Shown: one piece after another, positions 13,134 through 28,764 of the stretch
How positions within the stretch are numbered: position 1 is the first letter of the stretch
How the letters are laid out: every line of letters starts with the position of its first letter
Assembly: GCF_012184385.1 (NCBI RefSeq)
Contig: NZ_VSRL01000070.1
Coordinates: forward strand, 1 to 37,101
Reading direction: 5' to 3'
Length of the DNA stretch: 37,101 nucleotides
DNA from: Lentzea indica
Lineage (GTDB): Bacteria > Actinomycetota > Actinomycetes > Mycobacteriales > Pseudonocardiaceae
Notes under the pieces: generated by a model
The model's database searches: none
What the model was told of the DNA's origin: nothing
The model's input: the letters and a program-made list of their open reading frames with translations, nothing else
Position numbers and translations under genes: made by a program

Positions 13134-13146
13134 TGCGCTTTCTCCT

Positions 13147-14340
13147 TCAGGATTTGACGGCCATCACGGGTGCGCCGAGGCCGCGCAGCAATGGGATGCC
13201 GAGAAGTGCCACGCCCGCACAGATGAGGAACGCGGTCACGGGTGTGTCGACGAACAGCCCGACGATGGCCGGGACGAGCATGCCTCCGACGTTCCCGGCG
13301 CTCCAGACGAGGCCGGTGGCGGTGCCTTCGGCCTGGCCGGTATGACGCTCCAGGAGCTCGAGAATGATCGGAAGTGCCGGCATCAGGGCGAGGCCGATGA
13401 GTGTCAGGCCCAGAAAACCGGCGAACACCGACGGTGTCACCGCGAGCAGCAGACAGCCGGCGGACGTCACGACCAGCCCGGCGACCAGAGTCTGGCCTTC
13501 CACGCGATGGCGCGCTGTCAGTGGCGGAATGACCACACAGGCGATCGCACCGATGACCATGGTGAGCAGCAGCATGACGCTGGCGACGTTCGACGGCACT
13601 CCCGCTGGGTCCAGCAATGCCTGGGCGAACGTCGAGATCGCGTTGAAGATCCCGAACGGAACGAACACGACAAGACACAGCTGCCGGATGAGCGGGTCAG
13701 CGAAGGTGGCACGGATGGGAACGCGCTGTCTCACCGGCTTCCTGGCCACCGCCGGCGAGGGCTGCCAGAGCGCGATCAGCATCGCAACCGTTGCGGCACA
13801 GGCGATCCACGTGCCAATGCCGACGAACGTGGTGAGCTGTCCGGTGCCCGGCAGTACCGCACCGAGCACGAAGGCCGCGACCATGCCGGCGAACGTGCCC
13901 GCGCTCGAGATGGCGATACCGCTCGCGCGGTCTTTCACGGCGAGGTAGTGCCTGGCGACGCCGGGGATCGCGTTGAGCACCAACGGCTGGCCGATCGCGG
14001 CGACGATCTGTCCGGTCAGCGCCCACTCGTAGGAGTCGTCCACCAGCCTCAGCGCCGCCCCGGCCGCGGTGAGCAGCGCTCCTGCCGCGATCCCCGCCTT
14101 GAACCAGCGGTCCAGCAGGAGACCCGCTGGAATCGCCAGGAAGACGTACAACAGCGGGTTCACGTTGGCCAGCCAGCCGATCGCAGACTCCGGCACGCCG
14201 AAGTGAGCCGCGGCGGTGGTGGTGACGGGCGCGTAGTTCAACCAGATCAACTGAGTCGCCGCGGCGAGCACCGCGAAGATCGCCACGACCGTCCAGCGAC
14301 TTCGGTCGGGCGAACCGGTTGGGGGAGTGGATGTCGTCAT
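13147..14340 (-). CDS. MFS transporter
   Basis: A 397-aa transporter with 12 predicted helices. The first pair ends at PAGLLLDRWFKAG, the usual MFS loop 2-3 position. Later helices are clear (GIAISSAGTFAGMVAAFVLG, LVVFVPFGIFNAISTFA, GTATGLVWSAGNVGGMLVP). It begins 1 nt after the SDR stop and ends 13 nt before the FadD start, so it is co-translated with the pathway enzymes. It may import the pathway substrate or export a product; the direction cannot be read from sequence. Confidence 0.88.
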   Translation of the reverse strand: MTTSTPPTGSPDRSRWTVVAIFAVLAAATQLIWLNYAPVTTTAAAHFGVPESAIGWLANVNPLLYVFLAIPAGLLLDRWFKAGIAAGALLTAAGAALRLVDDSYEWALTGQIVAAIGQPLVLNAIPGVARHYLAVKDRASGIAISSAGTFAGMVAAFVLGAVLPGTGQLTTFVGIGTWIACAATVAMLIALWQPSPAVARKPVRQRVPIRATFADPLIRQLCLVVFVPFGIFNAISTFAQALLDPAGVPSNVASVMLLLTMVIGAIACVVIPPLTARHRVEGQTLVAGLVVTSAGCLLLAVTPSVFAGFLGLTLIGLALMPALPIILELLERHTGQAEGTATGLVWSAGNVGGMLVPAIVGLFVDTPVTAFLICAGVALLGIPLLRGLGAPVMAVKS

Positions 14341-14341
14341 G

Positions 14342-15184
14342 TCAGGTCCGGCTCTGCAGCAGGCGCTCGATCTTCGACACGACGGTGAAGTAGTGGGTCG
14401 GCGCGAGTCGGGTCACCGCGTCGAAGACGTAGGCGTCCGGCCCCACCAGGATTCGCGACTTCCCCGCCGCCAGGCCGCGGTGAATGATCTTGGCTGCCTT
14501 GTCCGGCGTCGTCATCGCCATGGCGTCGAACTCTTTGGCGAAGTCCTCCTGTGTGCGACCGAGTCCTTCGGGGTCCTGGTGAAAGCGTCCGTTGCGGGCG
14601 ATGTTGGTGCGGATGCCACCGGGATGGATGTTCACCGCGTCGACGCCGGTTCCGCGCAGTTCCTGGCGCAGAGCGTCGGTGAACCCGCGGACGGCGAACT
14701 TCGACGCGCAGTACGCGGTGTGGTGGGGCACGCCACCCAGCCCGTACACGCTCGACGTGTTGACGATCGTCCCCCTGCCCTGGTCGACGAGGATGGGGAG
14801 GAAGGCGCGTGTGCCGTGGACGACTCCGCCGAGGTTGATGCTCATCAGCCAGTCGTGGTCCTCGGCAGGCATGTCCAGGACCGTGCCGGCCGTCGCGACG
14901 CCGGCGTTGTTGAACACCGCGCCGAGATGACTCGGCATCCAGCTCTTCACCTCGATGGCGAACGCGGCCTGGGCCGCCGCGTCGCTGACGTCCAGAACGC
15001 GCGTGAGCACCGGCCCGAGGAGTGTCGCCTCGGTCTCCTTGAGCCCGTCCTGATCGATGTCCGTGATCGCGACAGGGCAACCGTGGGCGGACAAGCGCTG
15101 CGCCAGGGCGCGGCCGATGCCGGACGCGGCACCGCTGATGACAACCGTGCTTCCGTCGATCTTCCTACGCGGTGGCTTCGGCAT
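14342..15184 (-). CDS. Short-chain dehydrogenase/reductase (SDR)
   Basis: A 280-aa classical SDR. The cofactor motif is SGAASGIG (17-24) with an acidic pair in TDIDQDG, which favours NAD(H). NNAG is at 92-95. The active site has Ser at 144/145, Tyr158 and Lys162 in AYCASK. The C-terminal extension (VFDAVTRLAPTHYFTVVSKI) resembles the SadH-like SDRs of mycobacteria. AGGAG lies 7 nt before the ATG, inside the end of the hydrolase gene (20-bp overlap). A role in oxidising a secondary alcohol to a ketone fits its neighbours, a P450 and a Baeyer-Villiger-type enzyme. Confidence 0.9.
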   Translation of the reverse strand: MPKPPRRKIDGSTVVISGAASGIGRALAQRLSAHGCPVAITDIDQDGLKETEATLLGPVLTRVLDVSDAAAQAAFAIEVKSWMPSHLGAVFNNAGVATAGTVLDMPAEDHDWLMSINLGGVVHGTRAFLPILVDQGRGTIVNTSSVYGLGGVPHHTAYCASKFAVRGFTDALRQELRGTGVDAVNIHPGGIRTNIARNGRFHQDPEGLGRTQEDFAKEFDAMAMTTPDKAAKIIHRGLAAGKSRILVGPDAYVFDAVTRLAPTHYFTVVSKIERLLQSRT

Positions 15185-16094
15185 CGGTGCTCTCCTGCTC
15201 GGGAAGTGGTGGTGTCAGGGCACTGCGTGCGTTGGCGTCGATCAGATCGACGATTCGAGGCCACGCTCCCCGTGGCAGGTCGTGACCCATCCCGGTGATC
15301 GTTTCCAGCCGGGAGCCGGGGATCGCACTGGCCGTCGCGGTCCCGCCGGTGGGGTGCACCATCAGGTCCCGGTCGCCGTGGATGACGACGGTGGGTGCCG
15401 TGATGGCGGCGAGCTCGCGGCTCCGGTCGCCGCTGGCGAAGATCGCGGCCAGTTGCCGGTCCGCCCCGGCCGGTGCCGGATCCCGTTCCCAGGCCCGGCC
15501 GACGTACTCCCGGATCCATCGCTCGTCGAGGGGAAATCCGTGCGAACCGATGTGCCGGTACATCGTCAGCTCTCGGTCGATCGCTTCGCCGCACGTGTTC
15601 GGTGCCTGCCCGAACATGCGCAGCCACGTGCTCATCGCCGGACGACCGATCTTCGGCGCTCCGGTGGTGGACATGATCGACGCCAGCGATCGGACCCGCC
15701 AGGGAGCGTGTGCCGCGAGGGTCTGGGCGATCATCCCTCCCATGGACATGCCCGCGACGTGAGCCGAGTCGAGGCCGAGCGCGTCGAGCAACCCCATGAC
15801 ATCGCGCGCCATGTCGCCGAGGTGGTACTGGTGGGGCCCGAACCGCTTGAGGAACATCGCCATCGAATTGGGTGGCCGGTAGGGCATGTGCGTTGATCGG
15901 CCGGCGTCGCGGTTGTCGAACCTCACGACGGCGTAGCCGCGCTCGGCGAGGTCAGCGCAGAACTCGTCAGGCCACGCGTGCAGCTGCTGGCCCAGGCCGG
16001 CGACGAGCAGGATCGGTTCACCGGCAGGATCGCCGATCCGTTCGTAGCAAAGCGTGATACCGCGCCCGACGTCGGCGAAACGCTCGGAGGTCAC
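15165..16094 (-). CDS. Alpha/beta-fold hydrolase/esterase
   Basis: A 309-aa enzyme. The nucleophile elbow is GMSMGG with Ser117, the acid is Asp243 in HGDRDLMVHP, and the His is His271 in GMGHDLP. The oxyanion region is VAGLGQQLHAW. The sequence style is that of mycobacterial LipG-like hydrolases. The GTG start overlaps the P450 stop (GTGA), and the gene end overlaps the SDR start by 20 bp. As part of the operon it would hydrolyse the ester made by the divergent monooxygenase. The same reading frame remains open far upstream through the antisense of the P450 gene, but that part lacks any protein signature. Confidence 0.88.
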   Translation of the reverse strand: MTSERFADVGRGITLCYERIGDPAGEPILLVAGLGQQLHAWPDEFCADLAERGYAVVRFDNRDAGRSTHMPYRPPNSMAMFLKRFGPHQYHLGDMARDVMGLLDALGLDSAHVAGMSMGGMIAQTLAAHAPWRVRSLASIMSTTGAPKIGRPAMSTWLRMFGQAPNTCGEAIDRELTMYRHIGSHGFPLDERWIREYVGRAWERDPAPAGADRQLAAIFASGDRSRELAAITAPTVVIHGDRDLMVHPTGGTATASAIPGSRLETITGMGHDLPRGAWPRIVDLIDANARSALTPPLPEQESTDAEATA

Positions 16095-17419
16095 TGGATC
16101 GCTCGCTTCGGCGTCTTCCTGTGCGCGACCAGTCGCCCGTCGTCGCCGGGGGCGATCGCGATGCCGCGCCACTGTGCCCGCTCCGGCGGCGCGAACGTCG
16201 TACCCAACTCGAACTCCCGCAGAACTGTCCGCAGCACGACGTTCATTTCCATGGTCGCGAAGGCCGCGCCGACGCAGCGACGGGTTCCACCGCCGAACGG
16301 CACCCAGGAGTAGGTGTCCGGATTGACGCCGAGAAACCGATCCGGATCGAAGGACTCGGCATGGGGGAACACGGAGTCGGCATTGTGGGTGAGGTCGATG
16401 GAGGCCATGACCGTGTGCCCCTGGGGGATCACCCAGTCGCCGAGAGCGTAGAAAGGCGCCTTGACCTTGCGGTCCACGGCGTCGATGACCGGGCGGGTGC
16501 GCTGGACCTCCAAGATCGTCGCGTGGCGGAGCTCCGAGCCGCCGGCCTCCGCTTCCCCTGCCAGTCGATAAAGGACAGTGGGATGACGGCGAATCCGCTC
16601 GAACGCCCACGCCAGCGTCGTCGCCGTCGTTTCGTGCCCGGCAGCGAGCAGAGTGAGCAGTTCGTCGGCGATGTGCTGCCGTGTCATCGGTTTGCCGTCC
16701 TCGTACCGTGCCTGCAGCAGCAGCGAGAGAACGTCCTGGCGGTCTTCCAGGCTGGGTGCGGCCAACGCCTTCTTGATCAGTGAGTCGACGATGTCGTCGA
16801 AGCGCCGGCGATACGCCCGATACCGGCCACCGGGACTCCACGCCCCCAGGTTCATCCTGAATAGGGGAATGCCGGCGATCTTCGATCCGAGTTCCACCAA
16901 CGACGGAAGGAGTTTCCGGAGCTGGTCGAACTCGGTGCCCTCGGCACCGAAGACGGTGCGCAGGATGATGTTGAGAGTGATCCGCGTCATCGACGGCATG
17001 GACGCGAACTCGACTCCGCACGGCCACGTCGCGGTTTCGCGCAGCACCTCCTCTTCCACCACGGCCTCGTAGCCCTGCAGGCGCCGGCCGTGCAGGGGAG
17101 GGACGACGAGTTTGCGGCGCCGGTGATGCTCCGTGCCGTCCAGGCTGAACAGCGAACCGGACCCGAGTACGACACCCAGGTTGAAGTCGGAAAGACCGAC
17201 GATGTCGTTTTTCGTCTGAAAGAGCTGTTTGATCAGCGTTGGCTCACTTATCACGACTGTCCGGCCGTGCAGCGGTAGGTCGAGTGTGAAAGATGGTCCG
17301 TAGGCCCGCTGCAGCTGCTGCATCATCTGCTGGCGGCGCAGGACGAAGCCCAGCCCTTGCAGGACCTTCGGCAGTCGGGGGCCGGGCGGCAGGCAGACTC
17401 TCGTGCTCTGGTGGTTCAC
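16091..17419 (-). CDS. Cytochrome P450
   Basis: A 442-aa soluble P450. The I-helix oxygen-activation motif is AGHETT (260-265), the K-helix ExxR is EVQR (304-307) and the heme loop is FGGGTRRCVG with Cys382. A Pro-rich start (LPPGPRLPKVLQGLGFV) and the overall style suggest the CYP135/138-like bacterial group related to fatty-acid or alkane hydroxylases. The GTG start at 17419 lies 16 nt from an operator-like palindrome. It is first in the five-gene operon. No ferredoxin or reductase gene is nearby, so redox partners must come from elsewhere. Confidence 0.92.
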   Translation of the reverse strand: MNHQSTRVCLPPGPRLPKVLQGLGFVLRRQQMMQQLQRAYGPSFTLDLPLHGRTVVISEPTLIKQLFQTKNDIVGLSDFNLGVVLGSGSLFSLDGTEHHRRRKLVVPPLHGRRLQGYEAVVEEEVLRETATWPCGVEFASMPSMTRITLNIILRTVFGAEGTEFDQLRKLLPSLVELGSKIAGIPLFRMNLGAWSPGGRYRAYRRRFDDIVDSLIKKALAAPSLEDRQDVLSLLLQARYEDGKPMTRQHIADELLTLLAAGHETTATTLAWAFERIRRHPTVLYRLAGEAEAGGSELRHATILEVQRTRPVIDAVDRKVKAPFYALGDWVIPQGHTVMASIDLTHNADSVFPHAESFDPDRFLGVNPDTYSWVPFGGGTRRCVGAAFATMEMNVVLRTVLREFELGTTFAPPERAQWRGIAIAPGDDGRLVAHRKTPKRAIQ

Positions 17420-17435
17420 GGCTCACTACCCTTCG

Positions 17436-17457
17436 TTTGGTACCACGGCGTACCAAA
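17436..17457. promoter_or_regulatory. Operator-like palindrome A (P450 side)
   Basis: TTTGGTAC (17436-17443) and GTACCAAA (17450-17457) are perfect inverted repeats with a 6-nt spacer, ending 16 nt before the P450 start. The same core occurs at 17504-17521. Probably a TetR-type site; the regulator is unknown. Confidence 0.7.
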
Positions 17458-17503
17458 AACAATGCTACCCGCAACGTGTCTCGACTGACAAGGTTCAAAT
17501 GAT

Positions 17504-17521
17504 TGGTACGTTGCGGTACCA
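17504..17521. promoter_or_regulatory. Operator-like palindrome B (monooxygenase side)
   Basis: TGGTAC (17504-17509) and GTACCA (17516-17521) form an inverted repeat with a 6-nt spacer, the same architecture as site A. A further perfect palindrome, CGTTGCG-G-CGCAACG, lies at 17530-17544. Together they cover the divergent promoter region. Confidence 0.65.
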
Positions 17522-17574
17522 TTGCTGTTCGTTGCGGCGCAACGGTGCCGTACCTGGGAACAGGGGTGTGTTCA

Positions 17575-19071
17575 GTGATCGAACACCGTGACGTGATCAT
17601 CGTCGGCGCCGGCCTGTCGGGCATCGGGGCGGCCTGCCACTTTCGCCGGAAGTTTCCCGCCAGGTCCCTCGCGATCCTCGAGGGACGCGCCGCCATCGGC
17701 GGCACCTGGGACCTCTTCCGGTATCCGGGTGTGCGGTCCGACTCGGACATGTTCACGCTGGGCTATTCGTTCCGGCCGTGGGAGGGAGCGGAGGCCATCG
17801 CGGATGGACCGAGCATCCTGCGCTACATCGAGGACACCGCTCGCGAGTTCGCCATCGCCGGGGACATCCGCCTGAACCACAGGGTGACCACCGCGGCATG
17901 GGACAGCGAAACGGCACTGTGGACAGTCACGGCACGCAGGACCGACGTCGGCGAGGACGTGATCCTGACGGCCCGTTTCCTGTGGGTGTGCACCGGTTAC
18001 TACCGCTATGACGAAGGCTTCACCCCGCAGTTCCCGGGAGCCGAGGACTTCGAGGGCCGCATCGTTCATCCGCAGCACTGGCCGGAGGATCTCGACCACG
18101 CAGGCAAGCGGGTGGTCGTGATCGGCAGCGGCGCGACCGCGGTGACCCTGGTGCCGTCGATGGCCACGACCGCCGGCCACGTCACGATGCTTCAACGGTC
18201 TCCGTCCTACATCGCGGCGGCACCCAGGCGGGACCGGCTCGCCGACCTCCTTCACCGCGCGTTGCCCAAGTCCCTTGCGCACAACGCGATCAGGTGGCGG
18301 AACGTGGTGCTTGATCTCGCGATGTTCCAGCTGAGCAGGCGCCGGCCGAGTCTGGTCAAAGCGCTCATGCGACGGGAGACGGCGAAGCGGCTGCCCGCCG
18401 GGTACGACGTCGCGAAGCACTTCACGCCGAACTACAACCCTTGGGATCAGCGGGTTTGCTTGGCACCTGACGGAGATCTGTTCGCCGCGATCCGCGACGG
18501 CAAGGCATCGGTCGTCACCGACGTCGTCGACACCTTCACACCGGACGGGATCCGGCTGAAGTCAGGAGACGAGATCGCGGCCGACATCGTGGTCACGGCC
18601 ACCGGTCTGAACATGCTCGCACTCGGTGAGATGGAGGTGTCCGTCGACGGCAGCTCGATCGACATCGGCTCGACGGTGTCGTACAAGGGAATGATGCTGT
18701 CCGGGGTGCCGAACTTGTTCTTGACCCTCGGCTACACCAACGCGTCCTGGACCCTCAAGGCGGATCTCATTTCCCGGTACGCGTGCCGCTTGATCGACCA
18801 CATGGACAGCAACCACCACTCGTCGGTCACGCCGCTGCCGCCCGCGGACGGCGAGCTCGCTCCCCTGATGGATCTGACCTCCGGGTACGTCCGGCGTGGC
18901 ATCGACCAGTTCCCCAAGCAGGGCATCGTCGCGTCGTGGCGCCAGCACCAGAACTACCTTCGCGATCTGCGTTTGTTCACCCGAGGTCCGTTGGACGACC
19001 ACGTCCTGTTCGCGTCTGTCGCGATAGGACAGCGTCCTTCAGTTGGTCGATCGTCCAAGACGCTGCGTTAG
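17575..19071 (+). CDS. Flavin-dependent Baeyer-Villiger-type monooxygenase
   Basis: A 498-aa FAD/NADPH enzyme. The FAD Rossmann motif is GAGLSG (11-16) and a flavin-site motif is GGTWDLFRYPGVRSDSD (42-58). The Baeyer-Villiger fingerprint F-x-G-x3-H-x3-W-P is present as FEGRIVHPQHWP (159-170). The NADPH Rossmann motif is GSGATA (184-189). The nearest known style is EthA/MymA of mycobacteria. GTG 17575 is chosen, with AGGGG upstream. It is divergent from the P450 operon and shares its operator region. It would insert oxygen into a ketone to give an ester. The last residues run across a TetR-like operator, so the C-terminal ~12 residues may not be ancestral. Confidence 0.9.
   Translation: MIEHRDVIIVGAGLSGIGAACHFRRKFPARSLAILEGRAAIGGTWDLFRYPGVRSDSDMFTLGYSFRPWEGAEAIADGPSILRYIEDTAREFAIAGDIRLNHRVTTAAWDSETALWTVTARRTDVGEDVILTARFLWVCTGYYRYDEGFTPQFPGAEDFEGRIVHPQHWPEDLDHAGKRVVVIGSGATAVTLVPSMATTAGHVTMLQRSPSYIAAAPRRDRLADLLHRALPKSLAHNAIRWRNVVLDLAMFQLSRRRPSLVKALMRRETAKRLPAGYDVAKHFTPNYNPWDQRVCLAPDGDLFAAIRDGKASVVTDVVDTFTPDGIRLKSGDEIAADIVVTATGLNMLALGEMEVSVDGSSIDIGSTVSYKGMMLSGVPNLFLTLGYTNASWTLKADLISRYACRLIDHMDSNHHSSVTPLPPADGELAPLMDLTSGYVRRGIDQFPKQGIVASWRQHQNYLRDLRLFTRGPLDDHVLFASVAIGQRPSVGRSSKTLR
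19041..19061. promoter_or_regulatory. Operator-like site related to O1/O2, inside the monooxygenase 3' end
   Basis: This 21-bp stretch matches O1/O2 (9009-9029, 9085-9105) at 18 of 21 positions, keeping the GGTCGATCG core. It lies 27 bp upstream of the ATG of the truncated TetR at 19089, the same kind of distance as O2 to its tetR (26 bp). Confidence 0.6.
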
Positions 19072-19088
19072 GGTGGGGCCGCTCGGCA

Positions 19089-19613
19089 ATGGTGGAGGCC
19101 ATGACACGCGCGATCGTCAACGAAGCTGGAATGCCGCTGGGAGTCTTCCGCTACTGCTTCAAGTCGCGCGAGGAACTCCTGCAAGAGGTGATCAAGCGCC
19201 TCACGGAAAGCAGCGTGGCCGCGGCGCGGCAGGTGTTCGCGGCGGAGGGCGATCTCGGCTCGCGCATCGGCGACAGGCTGGACGCGTTCTGGCGGGGCGT
19301 CGAGGCCAGTCCTGGCGAGTACCTGGTGGGGTACGAGCTCACCCACTACGCGTTGCGCCAGGCCGGGTTCGAAGAACTGGCTCAGCGGCAGTACGCCCAC
19401 TACCTGGAAGTTCATCGGGACCTGCTCACGGAAGTGGCCGAGAGTGCCGGTGTCCGGTGGACCGTTCCGCTGCCCGTCCTGGCCCGCTATTTGAACTCCG
19501 TCCTCGATGGGGTCGCCCTGGTCTGGCTCATCGACCGCGACAGCGAGTCCAGCCGCGAGGTGCTCCGCCTCGCGGGCCGGCACCTCGAGACCCTCGCCGA
19601 GAAAGTGGAGTAG
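19089..19613 (+). CDS. TetR-family regulator lacking the first part of its DNA-binding domain
   Basis: A 174-aa frame. MTRAIVNEAGMPLGVFRYCF followed by KSREELLQEVI is the second half of a TetR helix-turn-helix. About 27-35 residues that should precede it (helix 1 and the start of helix 2) are absent, and the upstream bases do not encode them in any frame. The ligand domain is complete (GYELTHYALRQAGFEELAQRQ and on) and resembles the TetR at 9132. ATG 19089 or ATG 19101 could start it. It may be a 5'-deleted pseudogene or a non-DNA-binding partner of the related TetR. Confidence 0.65.
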   Translation: MVEAMTRAIVNEAGMPLGVFRYCFKSREELLQEVIKRLTESSVAAARQVFAAEGDLGSRIGDRLDAFWRGVEASPGEYLVGYELTHYALRQAGFEELAQRQYAHYLEVHRDLLTEVAESAGVRWTVPLPVLARYLNSVLDGVALVWLIDRDSESSREVLRLAGRHLETLAEKVE

Positions 19614-19760
19614 AGGGTCGGCCGCTCGGGTCGGTCGACCGGTTGCTTGAGGTCCTGGCCAGATCCCCTGATTGGCCGGGCAGCAGGTATGGATCTCCTG
19701 GGGCTAGCGGCTGCGGGGCCAGCTCACAGCCTTGGGACGGACCGACGACGTCAGCGGCAG

Positions 19761-20417
19761 TCAGATGAGGCGGCTGGTGTATCCGGCTGCGACGAGCCGC
19801 TGGTAGGCGGCGTCGACTTCGTCGGGCATGTCCTGCTCGATGGCGAATCCGCGTCGGGCGTACTCGGTGATGCGCTGGGTGTCGCCGACGAGCATGTTGA
19901 TCACCCGGTCGACGTCGCCGATGCTGGCGATGTACTCGTCGAGGGGCATCGGCCGGGAAGAGCACACGACGTCGGCTTCGGGCCACACCTTGCGGCAGGT
20001 GGCGTAGGCGCGTCGCTGCTGGTAGGGCCGGGAGATCAGCATGATCGACGCGGGCTGCAGGCCCGCGTCGGCGAGGACCTTGCGGCTGTTGGTGAGGTTC
20101 TGGCTGGTGTTGGTTGCCTGGGTCTCGATGGTGATCACCTCGGCGGGCACGCCGAGGGCGATTGCGTGTTCGCGGTAGTGCACGGCTTCGCCGCGGGGGA
20201 ACCGTTCGATCGTGGTGGGTGCGTTGGCGCCGGTGAACACGATGCGCGGGAACATGCCTTGGTGGTAGAGCTCGGCGGTGTGGGTGGCGACGCCGAGGTC
20301 GTGGCTGCCCAGGCCGATGCCGACGTCGCAGCGGCGCGGCTCGTGGCCCATGTCGTGGTAGGACCACAGGGTTTCGACATCGGCTCGCAAGTCCTGGGGA
20401 AGCGCCGTGGTCGCCAT
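19761..20417 (-). CDS. YdcF/SanA (DUF218) family protein
   Basis: A 218-aa alpha/beta protein. Family features: CDVGIGLGSHDLGVATHTAELY, FPRIVFTGANAPTTIERFPRG, EVITIETQATNTSQNLTNSR and SIMLISRPYQQRRAYATCRKV. The N-terminal GxGSHD and the central E-T-x-A-x-N-T-x-x-N motif are the DUF218 signature. It lacks the transmembrane anchor of ElyC/SanA-type members, so it is probably cytosolic. Family biochemistry is poorly known; ligand binding or a hydrolase/transferase role has been proposed. It starts 11 nt after the expected stop of the XRE regulator gene and is transcribed with it, opposite the radical SAM operon. Confidence 0.85.
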   Translation of the reverse strand: MATTALPQDLRADVETLWSYHDMGHEPRRCDVGIGLGSHDLGVATHTAELYHQGMFPRIVFTGANAPTTIERFPRGEAVHYREHAIALGVPAEVITIETQATNTSQNLTNSRKVLADAGLQPASIMLISRPYQQRRAYATCRKVWPEADVVCSSRPMPLDEYIASIGDVDRVINMLVGDTQRITEYARRGFAIEQDMPDEVDAAYQRLVAAGYTSRLI

Positions 20418-20428
20418 GCCCAGGCACC

Positions 20429-21663
20429 TTACGGCTGACGGGGTCGGTGCCTCGCACCCCCATCCTGGAGGCCAGTTCGACGGCGCGGGCGGCGGGGCGG
20501 GGCAGCCTGATCATCTCCCGCACGAGGATGCGAGACAGCCGGTGATACCGGACTTGTTCGGGCGCATCGTTTTCAGCGGCGAGCAGCACCGCGAGCGCGT
20601 CGTCGATGCGGTTCCATCGGACGTAGGCGCGGGCGGTTTCGATGGCGTGGCGGACGCGTCGTTCGGTGGGGAGGCCGCGGGTTTCGATGCGGGGACCGAG
20701 GTCAATGGCGACCTGGACGTCGCCGAGCTCCATCGCGGCGGTTACCCGGTGGATTTTCACGTTCGTCGGACCGAACGCGGTCCACAGGTAGTTCGCGTCG
20801 CTGCCGAGCCGGGTCGCGGCCTCGTCGGCTTCGGCGAGGAACGTGGTGGTGTCGGTGCGGTCGTCGCGGCGTGAGGAGGCGACCACGCCCACGAGGTGCA
20901 GCATCCCGTAGACCGACAGGTACTCCGGCGTGGCGGTGCCGAGGCCGGGCTCGAGATGGTCTGCGGCCGCGCGGGTGAGCGCGACGGCTTGCTCGAACTC
21001 GCCGATGGACAGCAGAGCGTGGGCGACCGACCGGTACAGCGATCCGATCATCAGGGGGTTGCCGGTGGTGTTGGCGGCGGTCAGGCCGCGGCTCGCGGAG
21101 ATCGCCGCGAGATCGGCTTCGCCGAGCTTGGTGAGCAACGCAGCGGCCAGTTGGTGAGCGCTGGCCGCGAGTTCGTGTGCGCGGAGTCCGTCGTCGCTCG
21201 TGGTGCCGTAGTGCTGGCAGGCGGCCTGGGCATCCGTGATCAGCAAGGGCAGGCGTTCGGTGAGCCGGGCGTAGCGGGAGTTCTGGTAGTCACTCCATTG
21301 CTTGTTGAGGTCGGCGACCAGCGTGGCCAAGCGGACCGGTTCTCCTGATTGCGGTCCGGTGAGGAACTGGCGGTGGTCCATGAGCGCCGCCCGAAGCGCG
21401 GGGACGGTCCGCCGGCCCGGCTCGTCGGCCCACGCCATCAGGACCGGCTCGCCGATCAGGTCGCCGAGAGCAACGTCGAGTGCCTTGGCAAAGCGGCGCA
21501 GCACGGAGAGCCGGTCCAGTGGGAGCACATCGTGCTCGACCTTGCGCAACCAGTCCTCCGTGCGACCCACGAGTCCCGCCAGGACCAGCTGAGTCAGGCC
21601 CCGCCGCTGCCGGTAGAAGGCGACGCGTTCTCCGATCGTCATGCCGTCGGTCATTCCCCGCAT
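20429..21663 (-). CDS. XRE-family regulator with helical repeat C-terminal domain (apparent frameshift near the end)
   Basis: An N-terminal XRE domain (MTIGERVAFYRQRRGLTQLV, LAGLVGRTEDWLRKVEHD, LSVLRRFAKALDVALGDLIG) is followed by a ~300-residue helical, TPR-like region (ISASRGLTAANTTGNPLMIG, SIGEFEQAVALTRAAADHL). The frame should end near ELASRMG, but as given it has no stop and runs to 19528 across the ydcF gene out of frame. Adding one base in the C5 tract at 20457-20461 moves the frame to a TAA at 20429-20431, 11 nt before the ydcF start, a normal operon layout. So there is a real 1-base deletion or a homopolymer error. The start is uncertain: ATG 21663 is preferred; 21654, 21642 and 21720 are possible. 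Confidence 0.7.
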
Positions 21664-21887
21664 GGCGTTCACCTTCGCATCCGCGCTGATGACGACCCCA
21701 GAGAAATCCTCCCGGTTCATACCGCCGGGCGTACCTAGCGTGATCACCTGCCGCGCTCGTGCCCTGACCGGCCAGCACTGCAGTTCCACCACCTCACAGG
21801 CACTCGGCTGCTCGGGCTTGCCGTCAGTGCTGACGAGTGCGCGGCAGCCATGACCTGATTCCGCGACGACTCCCGTGGAGGATCCTG

Positions 21888-24026
21888 ATGCGTGACTCGC
21901 GTCAGTCTGGCCGTGTTCGGCTCGTCGACACGATCGCACATGTCACCGGTATTGCCCCCACCGTGGGCGCCGGGCCGTGGACGGTTCCACTCGCCCAACC
22001 CGACCGTGTCCGGGACGCGATCGCCGAGTGCGTCGAGGGCCGGACGGTCGTGGTCACCGGCACGTTGGACCGGCGACTGGTTCTGATCGAACACGAGCCC
22101 GGTGGCACGTGGACCGCGGCCGACCTGTCCGGGCAGCCCCACAGCACCCGAACATGGCCAGCCTGGGCCGCCGACCACCTGCTGATCCATGATCCGGACG
22201 AGTGGCTGTCCCAGGCGGAGATCAGCGCCGAAGGCGTGCATCGGCTGTCGCGGCCCCGGTTGTTGCTGGCCGCGCTCTACCACCCCGAGTACTTCCCGCT
22301 GCCGAGGTTCCCGCTGGCGATCTCCGACCTCGCCCGCGCCGTGCGCACCACCTTGCTCGGACAGGTCGAGCTGTTGGACATGCAGCTCGGCGCGCAGCTG
22401 CACCACATCGTCGATCGCGTTGACTCAGGACAGGTCGACATCCTCGGGATCTCCGCGACCTTCGGCCAGCACGACCTCATGACGGAGCTGCTCGACGCGG
22501 TGACCACCACGGACACCCCGCCGATGCTCGTTGCCGGGGGCAGCCTCACCGCGCGCAACGAGTCCATGCTGCTGGACCGCTACCCGAACCTGATCATCAG
22601 CCGCGGTGCGGGCGAGCCCACCATCGCCGACGTTCTGTCGCACTGGCACAAGGACCTCACCATGGACCAGGTTCGCGGTGTCGGTTACATCGGCGCACCC
22701 CGCGGCACCGGGACGATGATGATTGCGCGTCGCCGCAACGCTGTTGTGCCCAATCTCGCGCAGGCCGACATCCTCCCGGAGCTCGACCTGCTCGACCTCA
22801 CGCTCACCTGCAACGGGGTCGCACAGCTGGAATTCAGCAGGGGCTGCACCAACTTCTGCTCCTTCTGCCCACGAGGCCACAAAGGACAGTGGTTCGGCGC
22901 TGCGCCGGAGTCACTGCGCTGGATGCTGCGCGAGATCGGCGCGGTCTTCGACAGACACCCGCACCGCAGCAGGACCGTGTACCTGGTCGACGAGGAGTTC
23001 ATCGGCCGCGGCGAGGACGCGGTGCCGCGGGCGTTCGCAGCCGCCGACATGCTCGCCGAGGAGGGCCTCGCCTGGGAGACGTCCTGCCGCGTGGACCAAG
23101 TCGTACGACCCGACCGCGACGAGACCTGGCACCGGGAGCGCGCAGAGATGTGGCGCGGCCTCGTCACCCGCGGGCTGCGGCGCTGCCTGTTCGGGGTGGA
23201 GTCCGGCGTCACCTCGATCCTCAAGCGGTTCAACAAGGAGACCACCGGCGAGCAGAACGCCCTGGCGATCCGCACGCTCACCGCACTGGGCGTGCCACCC
23301 CGGTTCACCTACATCACCTTCGACCAGCTCATGACCCCTGCGGAACTGCACGCGACCCATGCGTTCCAGGGCCGCACCGACCTGCTGGTCAAGCCGCAAC
23401 TGCACCTCACCGCAGAGGAGATCGTCGAAGGCGTGCGCGATGAGCAGTGGGTCGCCGAGCACACCACCGGCCGCCCCTTCTACTACGGCATCAGCTACAT
23501 GCTCGTCGGTATGGAGTGCCTGATCGGTGCCGCCTACACCCGCCAAGCCGAGAAGGAAGGCCTCACCGGCCGGCCCGACCCGTCGATGGGCCGCGTCGAG
23601 GCCCGCTACCAGGACTGGCGCATCGGCATTCTCGCCCGCTGGGCACAGTTGTGGATCGATCGGAACTTCCCGCTCGACTACACGCTCAAGAGCCTGGAGA
23701 AGATCCTCGACGGTCCCGCCTACGAGCGCGTGCGAGAGCTGCGCCGGGTGCTCAAAGACGCGGCCTACTTGCTGTTCGGCGGCATGCTCAACGCCATGGA
23801 CGCCACCGACGTGAACGCCACGGACCGGCAGGAGCTCGACGAGGTGTGCGCCGCAGTGGTCGAGGCGATGATCCGCGAACTGCGCGGCTCGCTGGAGCCT
23901 GTCGTCACCGCCGTGTGCGATGACCTTCCACAAGAGCACCGCGCCATCCTGGCGCGCGAGCACGATCGCTGGATGCTCAACTACGAGTGGACGCTCATCA
24001 ACGCCGGCGACCCGTGTGGCACCTGA
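21888..24026 (+). CDS. B12-binding-type radical SAM protein
   Basis: A 712-aa protein. Residues ~1-150 are of unknown type. ~170-290 look like a cobalamin-binding Rossmann-like domain (VDILGISATFGQHDLMTELL, PPMLVAGGSLTARNESML, LIISRGAGEPTIADV). The radical SAM core follows, with the [4Fe-4S] motif C-x3-C-x2-C at Cys320, Cys324 and Cys327 (GCTNFCSFCPRG), then YLVDEEFIGRGEDAV and CLFGVESGVTSILKRFNKET. A long C-terminal helical part is specific to this protein. GGAGG at 21877-21881 fixes the ATG. Members of this class do methylations, rearrangements and ring contractions; the substrate is unknown. It is first of a three-gene operon with an aldo/keto reductase and a CYTH protein. Confidence 0.88.
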   Translation: MRDSRQSGRVRLVDTIAHVTGIAPTVGAGPWTVPLAQPDRVRDAIAECVEGRTVVVTGTLDRRLVLIEHEPGGTWTAADLSGQPHSTRTWPAWAADHLLIHDPDEWLSQAEISAEGVHRLSRPRLLLAALYHPEYFPLPRFPLAISDLARAVRTTLLGQVELLDMQLGAQLHHIVDRVDSGQVDILGISATFGQHDLMTELLDAVTTTDTPPMLVAGGSLTARNESMLLDRYPNLIISRGAGEPTIADVLSHWHKDLTMDQVRGVGYIGAPRGTGTMMIARRRNAVVPNLAQADILPELDLLDLTLTCNGVAQLEFSRGCTNFCSFCPRGHKGQWFGAAPESLRWMLREIGAVFDRHPHRSRTVYLVDEEFIGRGEDAVPRAFAAADMLAEEGLAWETSCRVDQVVRPDRDETWHRERAEMWRGLVTRGLRRCLFGVESGVTSILKRFNKETTGEQNALAIRTLTALGVPPRFTYITFDQLMTPAELHATHAFQGRTDLLVKPQLHLTAEEIVEGVRDEQWVAEHTTGRPFYYGISYMLVGMECLIGAAYTRQAEKEGLTGRPDPSMGRVEARYQDWRIGILARWAQLWIDRNFPLDYTLKSLEKILDGPAYERVRELRRVLKDAAYLLFGGMLNAMDATDVNATDRQELDEVCAAVVEAMIRELRGSLEPVVTAVCDDLPQEHRAILAREHDRWMLNYEWTLINAGDPCGT

Positions 24027-24045
24027 CAAAGGGAGAGGTTGCACT

Positions 24046-25104
24046 GTGCCCACCTTGGAACGCCGGGTCCTTCCCGGCCTGGACAAGGAAGTTTCGGTGA
24101 TCGGCGCCGGCTGCTGGACCATCGGCGGCCCGGCAGCGAACAACGGTGTCCCGATCGGCTGGGACGACGTCGATCCGCACGAGGCCTTCGCCGCGCTGCT
24201 GAAGGCACACGAGCTTGGCGTGACCTTCTACGACACCGCCGACGTATACGGCCTCGGCCGGTCTGAACGCCTCCTCGGTCGCCTGGTCCGCGAGGTCGGC
24301 CGCGACGGGCTGATCATCTCCAGCAAGGTCGGCTACTTTGCCGGCACGGGCCCGCACCCGTACCACCCGGACCAGATGCGCCACCAACTCAACACGACGC
24401 TGGCCAACCTCAGCACCGACCACCTTGACGCCTATTTCTTCCACAGCAACGACTTCGGCGATGACGATCGGTATCTCGCCGACGCGATCAAGCTCATGCA
24501 CAAATGGCACGCCGACGGCATCATCGGCGCTATCGGCATACGCGCGCCGCACGTCTTCGCCCAGCAGTGGGCTGACGGAGACGGGCAGCACTCTGCGGAG
24601 TCGGCACGGTTTCTCAAGCTGTTCCAGGACATCGCACCCGATGTGGTGCAAGCGCGGTTCAACCTGCTCAGCCCGCTCTACGGCCCCGACGAGACCGACA
24701 TTTTCGCGTTCGCCCGCCTCCACGGTGTCGGCGTGCTGATCAAGCAGGCACTCGGCCAGGGCGTGCTCCTCGGCGGCTACGACCCCGACCGGCCACCTAC
24801 ATTCAGCCACACTGACCACCGCAGCACTGACCCGGCTTTCACCGCGGAGGCGTTGCGGGTCGCGTCGACCAAGCTGGCGCCGTTGCGCGACCGATTCGGG
24901 CATGACCCCGCGGCGCTGGTTCGCGTGGTGCTGCGCTACGTGCTGCAATCGGCACCCGACTCGATCGTGCTCACCGGGTTCCGCCACGCTGCACAGATCC
25001 ACACGAACGTCACGTGTCTCGGCAATCCGCTCACCGACGACGAGCTCGTCGAGATCCGGACTCTCCTGCACTCCACCACTCATGAGGAAGGCGACCTGAC
25101 GTGA
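24046..25104 (+). CDS. Aldo/keto reductase
   Basis: A 352-aa NADPH-dependent (beta/alpha)8 reductase. The catalytic tetrad is visible: Asp63 and Tyr68 in FYDTADVYGLGRSE, Lys94 in SSKVGYF and His133 in YFFHSNDF. The N-terminus VPTLERRVLPGLDKEVSVIG and the C-terminal segment DSIVLTGFRHAAQIHTNV are typical of the AKR superfamily, close to the YajO/Tas-like enzymes. GTG 24046 is chosen, with GGGAGAGG 7 nt upstream, 19 nt after the radical SAM stop. It presumably reduces a carbonyl of the radical SAM product, or the reverse. Confidence 0.88.
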   Translation: MPTLERRVLPGLDKEVSVIGAGCWTIGGPAANNGVPIGWDDVDPHEAFAALLKAHELGVTFYDTADVYGLGRSERLLGRLVREVGRDGLIISSKVGYFAGTGPHPYHPDQMRHQLNTTLANLSTDHLDAYFFHSNDFGDDDRYLADAIKLMHKWHADGIIGAIGIRAPHVFAQQWADGDGQHSAESARFLKLFQDIAPDVVQARFNLLSPLYGPDETDIFAFARLHGVGVLIKQALGQGVLLGGYDPDRPPTFSHTDHRSTDPAFTAEALRVASTKLAPLRDRFGHDPAALVRVVLRYVLQSAPDSIVLTGFRHAAQIHTNVTCLGNPLTDDELVEIRTLLHSTTHEEGDLT

Positions 25105-25652
25105 AGTACATCGAGGTCGAGAAGAAGTACGCCCTGTCCGACCCGGAGGCTCTGAAGGCAAGGCTGGTCGACCGGGGAGCCAAGGCCACCGACCCGACCA
25201 ATCAGGTCGACTCCTACTTCAACGCGCCGCACCGCGACTTCACCGAGCCCGAGGCGATCTCCGAGTGGCTGCGTGTGCGCACCGACAACGACGGCAACGC
25301 CTCCATCAACTACAAGCTCTGGCCCGCCGGCCGCCCGCACGCCGACGAGTTCGAGTCCTCGGTCGGCGATGTCGAAGCCATCCGCCGGATGCTCGAAGCC
25401 CTCGGCTTCCCGCCGCTGGTCACGGTGAACAAGACCCGCGAGGCCTGGACCCTCGATGACATCGAGATCGCCTTCGACCACGTCGAAGGCGCGGGCACGT
25501 TCGTCGAGTTCGAGTACAAGGCCGAAGCCGAGGCTCAGACCCCCGAAGACGCACTGACCTACCTCGACCAGTTCATCGCCGAGCTCAACGTCGAGCTCGG
25601 CGAGCAGATCAACCGCGGATATCCCCACATCCTGCTCGGTCGCCAGCGCTGA
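25101..25652 (+). CDS. CYTH-domain protein (class IV adenylate cyclase/thiamine triphosphatase-like)
   Basis: A 183-aa protein. It begins MKYIEVEKKYALSDP, containing the E-x-E-x-K signature of the CYTH triphosphate tunnel fold. Later strands carry alternating charged residues (EWLRVRTDNDGNASINYKLW, VNKTREAWTLDDIEIAFDHV, TFVEFEYKAEAE), as expected for tunnel walls that bind triphosphate and metal. The family includes CyaB-type cyclases, ThTPases and tripolyphosphatases; which reaction applies is not deducible. The GTG start overlaps the aldo/keto reductase stop by 4 nt (GTGA), showing tight coupling. A terminator follows 10 nt after the stop. Confidence 0.87.
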   Translation: MKYIEVEKKYALSDPEALKARLVDRGAKATDPTNQVDSYFNAPHRDFTEPEAISEWLRVRTDNDGNASINYKLWPAGRPHADEFESSVGDVEAIRRMLEALGFPPLVTVNKTREAWTLDDIEIAFDHVEGAGTFVEFEYKAEAEAQTPEDALTYLDQFIAELNVELGEQINRGYPHILLGRQR

Positions 25653-25661
25653 TCAACCGCA

Positions 25662-25713
25662 CCCTTCAGCCCCTGCCGCCGCTGCATGCGCGGCGGCGGC
25701 AGGGGCCGAAGGG
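25662..25713 (+). terminator. Strong terminator of the radical SAM operon
   Basis: A 13-bp perfect stem, CCCCTGCCGCCGC (25670-25682) with GCGGCGGCAGGGG (25693-25705), is extended past a 2x2 internal loop by CCCTTC (25662-25667) with GAAGGG (25708-25713). It starts 10 nt after the CYTH stop and also faces the convergent DUF397 gene. Confidence 0.8.
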
Positions 25714-25765
25714 CGTTGTACACAGGAAACAGGCCGAGCGAAGGCCACCGGGACGCAGCTGTGTC

Positions 25766-26017: not shown

Positions 26018-26878
26018 TTACGACGGCTGCGGTCCGCCTACGAACGCAAGGAAGTTCGCTGCTTGATCCGACCCAAGCGCGACCTTCTCCTGCGCCTCCC
26101 ACAGATCCAGGTACCTCTTGACGATCTTCGGCTCGTGCAGGACCGCCTGCTCGTCGTAACGCTCAACGTAGACGAGGTGCAGCGCGGGGTCAGCTGCATA
26201 TGTGGCGAGGTGGTAGTCGCTTTCCTGACCTGGGTAGAACCCGTGGCTGAACGGCACCCACTTGATGTGCACGTTGGGAAGCTTTGCGACCTCGGCCAGC
26301 CGCGTCAGCTGCCCGGCCCAAATGCCTGTGGTGTCTGAGATGAGACTCACCCGCGCGAGTGCGGCCTGGTCGATGATGAACTCGAACCGTTGGGCGGGGT
26401 TCAAGAGCGCTTCCTGGCGTCGAACGCGAAGGTTGATGAGCCGATCGATTTCTTCGACGGCGACTCCTGCGACCTCCATGAGGTAGCGCATCAACTCGAT
26501 CGTCTGGAGCATGCCGGGTAGCAGCATGCTTGCCTTGCAGCGAATCAACGTGGCTGTGCGCTCCATGTCGACCAGCTTGCGCATCGGCTCGGACTTGAAC
26601 TTCCACCGAAGATCAGCCTTCGGTACCGAGACGGATCCGACCTCGGCGTGCCAAGCGATCTGCGTCCAGGTCTCTGCGTCTCCACCAAGCGCAGCCTTGA
26701 GCTTCTCCAGGTTCTCTGCCGTGAAGAGCTTCTGACCGCGCTCCAGATCGACTTGAGTCGGCTGACTCCACCCGCACGCAGTCGCCACTTCACGCTGAGT
26801 GCGCTCATCGCGCAGCGCTTCGAGCAATCGACCGCACTGGATGTTGTGGATGAAGGCCGGCATCTCCACGGACGCCAT
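26018..26878 (-). CDS. XRE-family regulator with DUF5753 domain
   Basis: A 286-aa protein. The helix-turn-helix is at ~15-70 (LLEALRDERTQREVATACGW, SQPTQVDLERGQKLFTAENL). A DUF5753 domain follows (LIRCKASMLLPGMLQTIELM, RRQEALLNPAQRFEFIIDQA, LPNVHIKWVPFSHGFYPGQE). ATG 26878 is chosen because AGGAGG lies 7 nt upstream; the frame is open further, but the extension is only hydrophobic noise. Together with the DUF397 gene it forms a standard actinomycete regulator pair. The palindromes at 26961-26980 are its likely operator. Confidence 0.87.
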   Translation of the reverse strand: MASVEMPAFIHNIQCGRLLEALRDERTQREVATACGWSQPTQVDLERGQKLFTAENLEKLKAALGGDAETWTQIAWHAEVGSVSVPKADLRWKFKSEPMRKLVDMERTATLIRCKASMLLPGMLQTIELMRYLMEVAGVAVEEIDRLINLRVRRQEALLNPAQRFEFIIDQAALARVSLISDTTGIWAGQLTRLAEVAKLPNVHIKWVPFSHGFYPGQESDYHLATYAADPALHLVYVERYDEQAVLHEPKIVKRYLDLWEAQEKVALGSDQAANFLAFVGGPQPS

Positions 26879-26960
26879 GCGCGCACCTCCTGAACAGATC
26901 ACCGAACCCAAGGCAAACGCTACGGAGAGTAGCAGGACTGTGTTCACCAGAACGGGGCAT

Positions 26961-27498: not shown

Positions 27499-27820
27499 GC
27501 TGCGGCAGCGTCTCGATGATCACCTGGATCTCGTGTCGCGAGTCGCGGCTGAAGGCGACGCCGCATCCGCCTTGTCGATGATGCGTCGGGAAGTCCCAGG
27601 CTTGGTCGCAGCGGTGCATGCGCTTGTCGACGAACATCTCCCGGACGAGAACGGCTGCTGCAGAAAGTGTCGCAGCGGACCGTTCTGGCGCAGGATTCCT
27701 GCACCGTGCCGGATGCTGATCAAGGTTCACCTCGCCGTCGGAGCAGCTACGGCGACAACGCGGGACCGCACGTGCTGGAGCCCAAGGAGGCACAGGCTGC
27801 ACGAGTCCTCGGTGGACTGA
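27473..27820 (+). CDS. Small hypothetical protein with Cys-rich motif
   Basis: A 115-aa frame with a strong AGGAGGGG Shine-Dalgarno before ATG 27473. It is helical at the start (MGNLVLFAELRQRLDDHLDL, REVPGLVAAVHALVDEHLPD), then has a zinc-ribbon-like ENGCCRKCRSGPFW and APCR. Small proteins with this helical part plus Cys motif occur near XRE-DUF5753 genes in actinomycetes; their role is unknown. The last ~30 residues are low-complexity and basic and overlap the upstream region of the next gene, so the native end may be earlier. Confidence 0.55.
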   Translation: MGNLVLFAELRQRLDDHLDLVSRVAAEGDAASALSMMRREVPGLVAAVHALVDEHLPDENGCCRKCRSGPFWRRIPAPCRMLIKVHLAVGAATATTRDRTCWSPRRHRLHESSVD

Positions 27821-27864
27821 ACCGACCTCCTCTCAACCTTCTTATCAGCACAAGGAATTCGGAC

Positions 27865-28764
27865 ATGCCGAAGAGATTCTCCACCGCGCGCGGCCGCGAA
27901 TTCGGTGAGGGCATGCGAGCTGCTATCACGAACTCGGGGCTGAACGCCCGAGAGGTTGCCGACCTGTTGAGCTGGCAGGAGGCCAAAGTCTCGGACGTGC
28001 TGACCGGCAAGGGCGGTGTCAGCCGGCTCGAGGTCGCGCTACTGCTGGGTCTCTGCCGGGCCAAAGCCGATGAGCGTGACCATCTGCTCGAACTCTTTCC
28101 GGAGAGGGACTTGTCGGGATGGTGGCAGCTGCACGGCAAGTGCGCGCCGGTACGACCGCGGACCGCCCTCACCCACCTCGCCGCAGCCGAAACCTTGATC
28201 AGCTGGCACACGCACGCCGTGCCAGTTCTTCTCCGGACAGCTGAGTATGAGCGCGCCGTGTTGACCGCGTCCGCCACCGTGTCGGTCGACGAGTTGGACG
28301 AGCGGTTGCGTGTACTGCAGGAGATGCAGAAGCTGCTCAGCAACGGTCTGGACTGCACCTTCTACATCCACGAACTCGCGCTCGATCTTCAGATCGGTAC
28401 ACCAGAAGAGCACATCGGCCAGCTGCAGCACCTCGTGCTCATGGCGAACTGGAAGAAGATCAGGATCTTGGTCGTGCCTGCAGCAGCTGGTGCACATGCG
28501 GGCATAGCGGGGCCCTTCACTCAGCTGAAGTTCCCGAAGTACGAGCCGCTGGTGTGGACGGAGACTGAGAACTCCAGCCTCTTCGTCGAGACGAAGGAGG
28601 CTGTCGGAGGCTACGCGGATGTCATCCGGGCGCTCGACGAGGTCAGCCTGGACGAGGACGAATCGAGGGATCTGATCGTCCGCCGGTGCGTCCGCCTTCA
28701 GGAGGCCGGCGACGCAGACGGTGCGGTGCAACGGGATTCGGATGAGCCCTTTCCGTCGTTGTAG
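27865..28764 (+). CDS. XRE-family regulator with DUF5753 domain
   Basis: A 299-aa protein. The helix-turn-helix lies at ~12-70 (FGEGMRAAITNSGLNAREVA, DLLSWQEAKVSDVLTGKGGV). A DUF5753 domain contains ISWHTHAVPVLLRTAEYERA, LDCTFYIHELALDLQIGTPE, KIRILVVPAAAGAHAGIAGP and VGGYADVIRALDEVSLDEDE. ATG 27865 is chosen with AAGGA upstream; the open frame extends 66 codons further 5' without any domain content. It is a second regulator of the same class as 26018-26878, in opposite orientation, with the small genes between them. Confidence 0.87.
   Translation: MPKRFSTARGREFGEGMRAAITNSGLNAREVADLLSWQEAKVSDVLTGKGGVSRLEVALLLGLCRAKADERDHLLELFPERDLSGWWQLHGKCAPVRPRTALTHLAAAETLISWHTHAVPVLLRTAEYERAVLTASATVSVDELDERLRVLQEMQKLLSNGLDCTFYIHELALDLQIGTPEEHIGQLQHLVLMANWKKIRILVVPAAAGAHAGIAGPFTQLKFPKYEPLVWTETENSSLFVETKEAVGGYADVIRALDEVSLDEDESRDLIVRRCVRLQEAGDADGAVQRDSDEPFPSL

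Follow-up and report, generated by a model that had tools for sequence, protein, structure and literature searches.

We analysed a stretch of Lentzea indica DNA of 37,101 bases, called the window below, which is one entire contig (C602) of a genome of 9.97 Mb in 634 contigs. The subject is a run of three genes on the forward strand that encode a cobalamin-dependent radical SAM enzyme of the OxsB/AlsB family (rSAM from here on), an aldo/keto reductase (AKR) and a CYTH protein or triphosphate tunnel metalloenzyme (TTM). The rSAM gene (21888-24026, +) was assigned by homology to OxsB and by its predicted fold. Its open reading frame (ORF; 21837-24026, +) opens at GTG 21837, but the translation start is likely the ATG at 21888, which is preceded by GGAGG and gives a protein of 712 amino acids (aa). 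The AKR gene follows after 19 nt (24046-25104, +; 352 aa; Pfam PF00248, E 2.2e-41), and the CYTH gene (25101-25652, +; 183 aa; PF01928, E 1.6e-27) overlaps it by the four bases GTGA (25101-25104).

A preliminary description of the window, made from the sequence alone, had joined these genes to a facing XRE regulator and a YdcF protein as a candidate undescribed five-gene system. Each of the five genes is there, on the described strand and of the described family, and so is the GTGA overlap. The same description placed a strong terminator after the CYTH gene. A long GC-rich hairpin does lie there (25653-25725, +), and its folding energy of -57.8 kcal/mol was not reached by any of 200 shuffled sequences (z -9.2); it lacks a T-run and is absent from the list of the terminator scan. 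It is probably the transcription end of the operon.

The radical SAM protein and its relatives

Sequence and predicted structure place rSAM in the OxsB/AlsB family. OxsB, which acts in oxetanocin A synthesis, was the only sequence match among the solved structures of the PDB (phmmer E 3.5e-79), and a profile built from 40 rSAM sequences matched it with E 1.3e-127, profile positions 36-710 lying on OxsB 24-741. The AlphaFold model (pLDDT 89.3) had three OxsB entries as its top Foldseek matches, with TM scores of 0.73-0.76 along the full length (755 alignment columns at TM 0.76), whereas the next structural families reached TM 0.45 or less by query length. The OxsB-type match spans the N-terminal, cobalamin, radical SAM and C-terminal helical domains. 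Identity is about 30% to OxsB and 49% to the rSAM encoded at the albucidin locus (L066), and the cysteines of the CX3CX2C cluster (C337, C341 and C344, numbered from GTG 21837) are invariant in the 40 aligned sequences, the window included.

The Pfam scores are below the cut-offs both for Radical_SAM (26.5 against 29.5 bits) and for B12-binding (24.8 against 32.1 bits); therefore the B12-type assignment, already proposed in the preliminary description, rests on the homology to OxsB. We also tried two other assignments and rejected them. The best NCBIfam equivalog was BchE, which scored 51 bits where the cut-off is 481, and the methyltransferase-type B12 radical SAM enzymes TokK, CysS and TsrM fitted the model far worse than OxsB. 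TokK and TsrM are described as being without the N-terminal domain that the OxsB match includes (PMC13331322). The rSAM is not of an unknown kind, its closest characterised relatives being the ring-contracting enzymes of known nucleosides.

Partners and gene order

A pattern-based scan of 84,980 species genomes gave 101 stretches, among them 67 relatives of rSAM, in 66 loci. Five plasmid loci, one further locus (L016) and the window brought the comparison to 73 loci. The scan patterns favour sequences resembling the rSAM of the window, several loci are contig ends or have broken frames, and some are near-duplicates (e.g. L034 and L035). The rSAM gene itself is broken or split in the drafts of L024, L070, L074 and L079. 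Partners were scored as present or absent by tblastn, inside the fetched stretch only, and genes were called with a simple purpose-made caller. Genome frequencies refer to 298 sampled genomes of the order, 6 of which carry rSAM (E <= 1e-30).

An AKR was found in 61 of the 73 loci, a CYTH protein in 19 and a protein of the Exo_endo_phos family (EEP) in 39, and no locus had both CYTH and EEP (hypergeometric probability 1.2e-8 on the assumption of independent loci, which does not hold). The AKR lies within 1.3 kb of rSAM in 58 of the 61 loci and within 300 nt in 27, and it is within 300 nt of CYTH or EEP in 51 of the 57 loci that have the AKR and one of these two. The order rSAM-AKR-CYTH on one strand is kept in 18 of the 19 CYTH loci, the exception being L024, where rSAM is in two opposed pieces. 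The three genes are a real, conserved operon. Regarding the AKR itself, residues D63, Y68, K94 and H133, which we take to be the Asp-Tyr-Lys-His catalytic tetrad, are invariant in the 13 aligned sequences.

The third place can also be taken by a NUDIX hydrolase, which directly follows the AKR in three Salinispora loci (L034:13206-13661, L035:13137-13592 and L075:12293-12733; Pfam was run on L034 only). In L009 a NUDIX-type match adjoins the AKR and an EEP is also present. A different partner, an AlsA-like gene, stands beside rSAM in four loci (L010, L066, L068 and L069), and none of these four has an AKR within the fetched stretch; that is, 4 loci with AlsA-like genes against 61 with AKR, and none with both. 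The gene was found neither in the window nor in any of the 19 CYTH loci. Three of the four belong to Agrobacterium, Duganella and Herbaspirillum (L010, L068 and L069), and these are possible albucidin-type clusters outside the actinomycetes. The other loci lacking an AKR are contig ends or partial (L053, L072, L078, L080), or have broken or partial rSAM matches (L074, L079, L082), and L073 lacks it with no evident explanation. Conversely, L048 was counted among the 61 on a remote match only (25%), some 8 kb away.

Some EEP clusters carry more genes. A larger cluster type (L008, L009, L038, L040, L042, L047, L049, L052, L055, L061 and, in part, L067) combines rSAM and a thymidylate-kinase-like part with a DegT aminotransferase, a formyltransferase, a 230-aa protein with no Pfam match, EEP and AKR, a content that suggests an amine-bearing, N-formylated product. 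A gene of about 210 aa (L007:14105-14725 (-) and its relatives) adjoins rSAM, mostly on the opposite strand, in 27 of the 73 loci by tblastn, namely 26 EEP loci, no CYTH locus, and L048. Its only Pfam match has E 0.049, its GS...SDLDL motif resembles that of nucleotidyltransferases, and it may possibly serve self-resistance or tailoring. Upstream in several EEP clusters there is a block (L007:6440-11816) with a weak NAD-binding/SAH-hydrolase-like protein, a methyltransferase, a protein that weakly resembles phosphoribosyltransferases and a HAD hydrolase.

Apparent exchange of the reductase and the third enzyme

The trees (LG+G4) of rSAM and AKR tell different histories for the third enzyme. 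The AKR tree covers 55 of the 61 AKR loci (L035, L043, L045, L048, L051 and L067 were omitted), and in it the 19 CYTH-linked and the 34 EEP-linked rows are on opposite sides of one fully supported branch, which is a single change; two Salinispora rows sit on the CYTH side. A first rSAM tree held 60 of the 73 loci, and after ten of 61 rows were omitted (OxsB, L010, L067, L068, L069, L053, L048, L051, L045 and L035) the second one held 51 rows, 17 with CYTH (of the 19 CYTH loci) and 32 with EEP. On it the same labels require four changes, with some inner branches weakly supported, and a single CYTH clade was rejected by the AU test (delta lnL 337, p 8e-32), a test that presumes a group named before the tree is seen; the CYTH group was defined by gene content, but after the first tree. 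Single pairs of loci behave in the same way: L032 and L062 share 76% identity in rSAM and 45% in AKR, and L023 and L028 share 71% and 45%.

One change on the AKR tree against four on the rSAM tree, together with the rejected CYTH clade, suggests that the reductase and the third enzyme were swapped jointly under a common rSAM core. On these trees they appear to act as a swappable cassette, and we propose to read AKR+CYTH and AKR+EEP as two alternative finishing modules for one kind of product.

The CYTH protein

In sequence and model the CYTH protein has the features of a CYTH/TTM phosphohydrolase, namely ExExK, the xRxR arginines, the ExE metal site and the fold. The ExExK motif, W56-x-R58-x-R60, K111, R113, D126 and E136-x-E138 are invariant in the 19 operon proteins. 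The structure prediction that the preliminary description had suggested gave a model with pLDDT 91.5 and a tunnel fold, and its top Foldseek match by E-value was the archaeal triphosphatase SaTTM, although class IV cyclases, that of Yersinia included, match about as well by TM (0.77-0.80).

The top sequence match in the PDB is the Yersinia class IV cyclase (2fjt), and the NCBIfam model cyaB ('class IV adenylate cyclase') scores the window protein at 75.6 bits against a cut-off of 57.95. Nevertheless, true cyclases are described as having HF before ExExK (HFxxxxExExK), a small residue where xRxR has its first arginine and Ala in place of the second glutamate of ExE (PMC8233210). All three markers fail in the 19 proteins: HF is missing even upstream of the start, and R58 and E138 are invariant. 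The W/YxRxR form is attributed to enzymes in which an aromatic organic group is stacked, as in the thiamine triphosphatase ThTPase (PMC8233210), and W56 is kept in 19 of 19, whereas eight remote CYTH proteins of the order carry Phe (seven) or Cys (one). With the markers failing and W56 kept, the cyclase label is probably wrong for the operon group.

This CYTH type also follows rSAM across genomes. Close relatives (at least 61% identity) occur in 4 of the 298 genomes, all within the 6 that have rSAM, and the other CYTH matches are only 26-38% identical.

Proposed pathway and alternatives

In oxetanocin synthesis the deoxyribose of a 2'-deoxyadenosine nucleotide undergoes ring contraction by OxsB, and OxsA removes phosphate (PMC13331322, PMC7074753); the aldehyde intermediate of the oxetanocin route is reduced by a nonspecific dehydrogenase from outside the pathway (PMC13331322). 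On the homology and models given above, we consider with moderate confidence that rSAM, AKR and CYTH form a compact operon by which a nucleoside or nucleotide with a contracted (oxetane-type) ring is made. To judge from its family, rSAM would act on a 2'-deoxynucleotide and contract its sugar ring with the help of SAM radicals and cobalamin, leading to an exocyclic aldehyde. The AKR would then turn this aldehyde into an alcohol, the step that the oxetanocin pathway leaves to the nonspecific dehydrogenase, and CYTH, as a putative phosphohydrolase of organic triphosphates, would strip phosphate from the product or from an intermediate. CYTH would thus occupy the slot that OxsA has in oxetanocin synthesis and that EEP or NUDIX has in the sister clusters, and it could additionally or alternatively guard the producer against a toxic triphosphate. 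In its simplest form, by analogy, this would be a route like that of oxetanocin in which CYTH replaces OxsA and the operon itself supplies the reductase that is missing there. It agrees with the earlier proposal of a small pathway whose substrate is phosphorylated or nucleotide-like, which the OxsB/AlsB family of rSAM and the gene order kept in the CYTH loci make the likely reading.

Several observations weigh against this proposal. The identity between rSAM and OxsB is low, and Asn186, which lies under the cobalt in OxsB, is replaced by Thr (Thr208) in all 40 aligned sequences, a sample biased at this very position, as one of the two search patterns demanded that Thr, and this pattern is present in 36 of the 40. 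The albucidin rSAM also has Thr here, so the position separates OxsB from the albucidin side and does not exclude family membership. The distance from rSAM to the AKR exceeds 300 nt, or a gene intervenes, in 34 of the 61 AKR loci. Exodeoxyribonucleases were the PDB matches of the single EEP protein searched there, so that an equivalence of EEP and CYTH is presumed from position. An aminotransferase and a formyltransferase occur together in 11 of the 73 loci, and the aldehyde may meet other fates there. SaTTM is reported to take off only the terminal phosphate of ATP and to prefer inorganic triphosphate about 19-fold (PMC8233210); a CYTH of this kind would not release the nucleoside on its own. 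Finally, AlsB is reported to use dAMP and to require no phosphatase (PMC13331322), which fits a triphosphate-cleaving partner poorly. Since AlsB takes a monophosphate and CYTH is expected to remove just the outer phosphate, CYTH may be protective and not finishing.

The alternative that survives best, possible although we hold it unlikely, is that CYTH, as well as EEP and NUDIX, is not a pathway step and instead destroys the toxic triphosphate of the product, which would be compatible with the ring contraction and AKR steps. The families of the third enzyme vary while rSAM and AKR persist, as self-protection would allow, and NUDIX enzymes are house-cleaning hydrolases. However, the AKR and the third enzyme move as one cassette, whereas there is no need for a gene of resistance alone to follow the AKR; their travelling jointly suggests a shared intermediate.

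Less probable again is that rSAM has moved away from nucleotides, to a sugar phosphate, a nucleotide sugar or another phosphorylated metabolite, and that AKR and CYTH act on the product of that reaction. The distance from OxsB leaves room for this, and the sister clusters with DegT aminotransferase, formyltransferase, methyltransferase and weak phosphoribosyltransferase-like genes look broader than a two-step oxetane pathway. On the other hand, the albucidin rSAM belongs to the same family, the scanned third-place enzymes (CYTH, EEP and NUDIX) are all of phosphate-bond-cleaving families, and the thymidylate-kinase-like gene of some clusters, although below the Pfam cut-off, points to nucleotides.

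If the ring-contraction proposal is extended to the sister clusters, they might constitute a third and larger oxetane nucleotide branch, so far unseen in actinomycetes, in which AKR+CYTH and AKR+EEP cassettes are shuffled under an OxsB-like core. Possible products are novel ring-contracted nucleosides or nucleotides that terminate chains inside the cell, and CYTH could be a new hydrolase class specific for a modified deoxynucleotide triphosphate. This extension is tentative, and we give it less credit than the proposal itself.

Neighbouring genes and the suggested five-gene system

The YdcF/DUF218 gene (19761-20417, -; PF02698, E 2.7e-17) and the XRE/HTH_31 regulator (about 20440-21666, -; assigned by Pfam) are neighbours of the operon and divergent from it. 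The C-terminal part of the regulator is weakly NsdA-like (45.2 bits against a cut-off of 75). The two genes had been described as 11 nt apart, and both are there, but the XRE stop at that spacing is out of frame in the window. Its ORF continues to 19528 (19528-21939, -) and overruns ydcF in another frame, which is either a draft error or a real change; in L021 and L065 the frame is kept to that stop.

The idea that the five genes are a single system, with XRE and YdcF integral to it, is very improbable. The same arrangement does recur in L021 (Saccharopolyspora indica) and in L065 (Actinoalloteichus spitiensis), where additional called ORFs separate XRE from rSAM, and the XRE genes upstream of rSAM in these two loci are 83% identical to that of the window, while the other XRE matches in the loci are at 27-32%. 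Nevertheless, relatives of YdcF (E <= 1e-20) occur in 56 of the 298 genomes, against the 6 with rSAM, and YdcF lies within only 5 of the 73 rSAM loci. Among the 20 best-scoring YdcF loci, taken with 1.5 kb on each side, an XRE relative adjoins in 9 including the window, and the 19 others (8 with XRE) have no rSAM in these flanks. Three genomes carry rSAM and YdcF apart, at 2.8 Mb in G083 and on separate contigs in G112 and G118. In a rough alignment of three loci, one of them with 1.5 kb in this region, only the XRE side is conserved and the sequence ahead of the rSAM start is not, so that a shared XRE/rSAM operator was rejected as well. Of the co-occurrence and order originally suggested for checking, the rSAM-AKR-CYTH part is thus conserved, but XRE and YdcF are not tied to rSAM and look like a widespread separate pair, bystanders to the operon. 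A helical-repeat regulator may still be a usual companion of rSAM, yet not the XRE-YdcF pair: other HTH regulators near rSAM gave fourteen family memberships (F5 in 9 CYTH loci, F17 in 5), and the one checked has HTH and TPR.

The least probable reading, with a very slim chance, would make CYTH a class IV adenylyl cyclase and a cyclic nucleotide signal the product of the operon. The cyaB score, the Yersinia sequence match and a Yersinia TM near that of SaTTM speak for it; against it stand the three failing markers and a first structural match by E-value that is a triphosphatase reported to form no cyclic nucleotide (PMC8233210).

Regarding the rest of the window, the region beside the operon (11589-19613) encodes an AMP-binding ligase, an MFS transporter, a short-chain dehydrogenase, a P450, a flavin monooxygenase and a TetR-type regulator, and looks like an unrelated block. 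Directly past the operon there are two HTH_31-DUF5753 regulators (26018-26947, -, and 27667-28764, +). A known anti-phage system was considered and rejected, as the PADLOC scan gave nothing beyond a weak capH match to the DNA-binding part of XRE.

Comparison with known systems

The oxetanocin A pathway (OxsB and OxsA, Bacillus megaterium) is among the closest known systems. The window rSAM matches OxsB over nearly the full chain, both sets have a phosphate-cleaving partner, and in the oxetanocin route an aldehyde has to be reduced. The window operon differs in having its own AKR and in having CYTH where the HD enzyme OxsA stands, and no HD family was found among the 20 window proteins scanned; in rSAM itself the differences are the Thr under the cobalt and the identity of about 30%.

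The albucidin pathway (AlsA/AlbA and AlsB/AlbB, Streptomyces albus subsp. chlorinus, L066) has the closest characterised rSAM relative, with the same cobalt-facing Thr. There an AlsA-like gene precedes rSAM, and AlsB partners AlsA, which takes off a one-carbon unit (PMC13331322, PMC7074753). As described in PMC13331322, the pathway has this second radical SAM enzyme and no dedicated phosphohydrolase, whereas the window has AKR and CYTH instead. Comparing AKR-type with AlsA-type partners would offer a direct test of what sends the products of OxsB-type enzymes towards an aldehyde, an alcohol or the loss of carbon.

Compared with the TTMs of the CYTH superfamily, in particular SaTTM and ThTPase, the window CYTH shares ExExK, the paired arginines and the two-Glu ExE, with WxRxR as in thiamine triphosphatases, and differs as a subfamily tied to an rSAM operon. 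In the biosynthesis of natural products it would offer a tangible example of a tunnel enzyme whose organic substrate is defined.

No counterpart of the rSAM-AKR-CYTH gene set is described in the open-licence PMC literature searched; judged by title and opening of the abstract, what came up was the paper on albucidin, a review of OxsB and AlsB, a preprint on BchE and unrelated work. PMC7074753 and PMC13331322 give only two known natural oxetane nucleosides, oxetanocin A and albucidin. Against these two, the window operon looks like a member of a family of several dozen gene sets related to the oxetanocin and albucidin makers, with their own built-in reductase and an enzyme of a phosphate-cleaving type, which in the window is of the triphosphate-cleaving kind.

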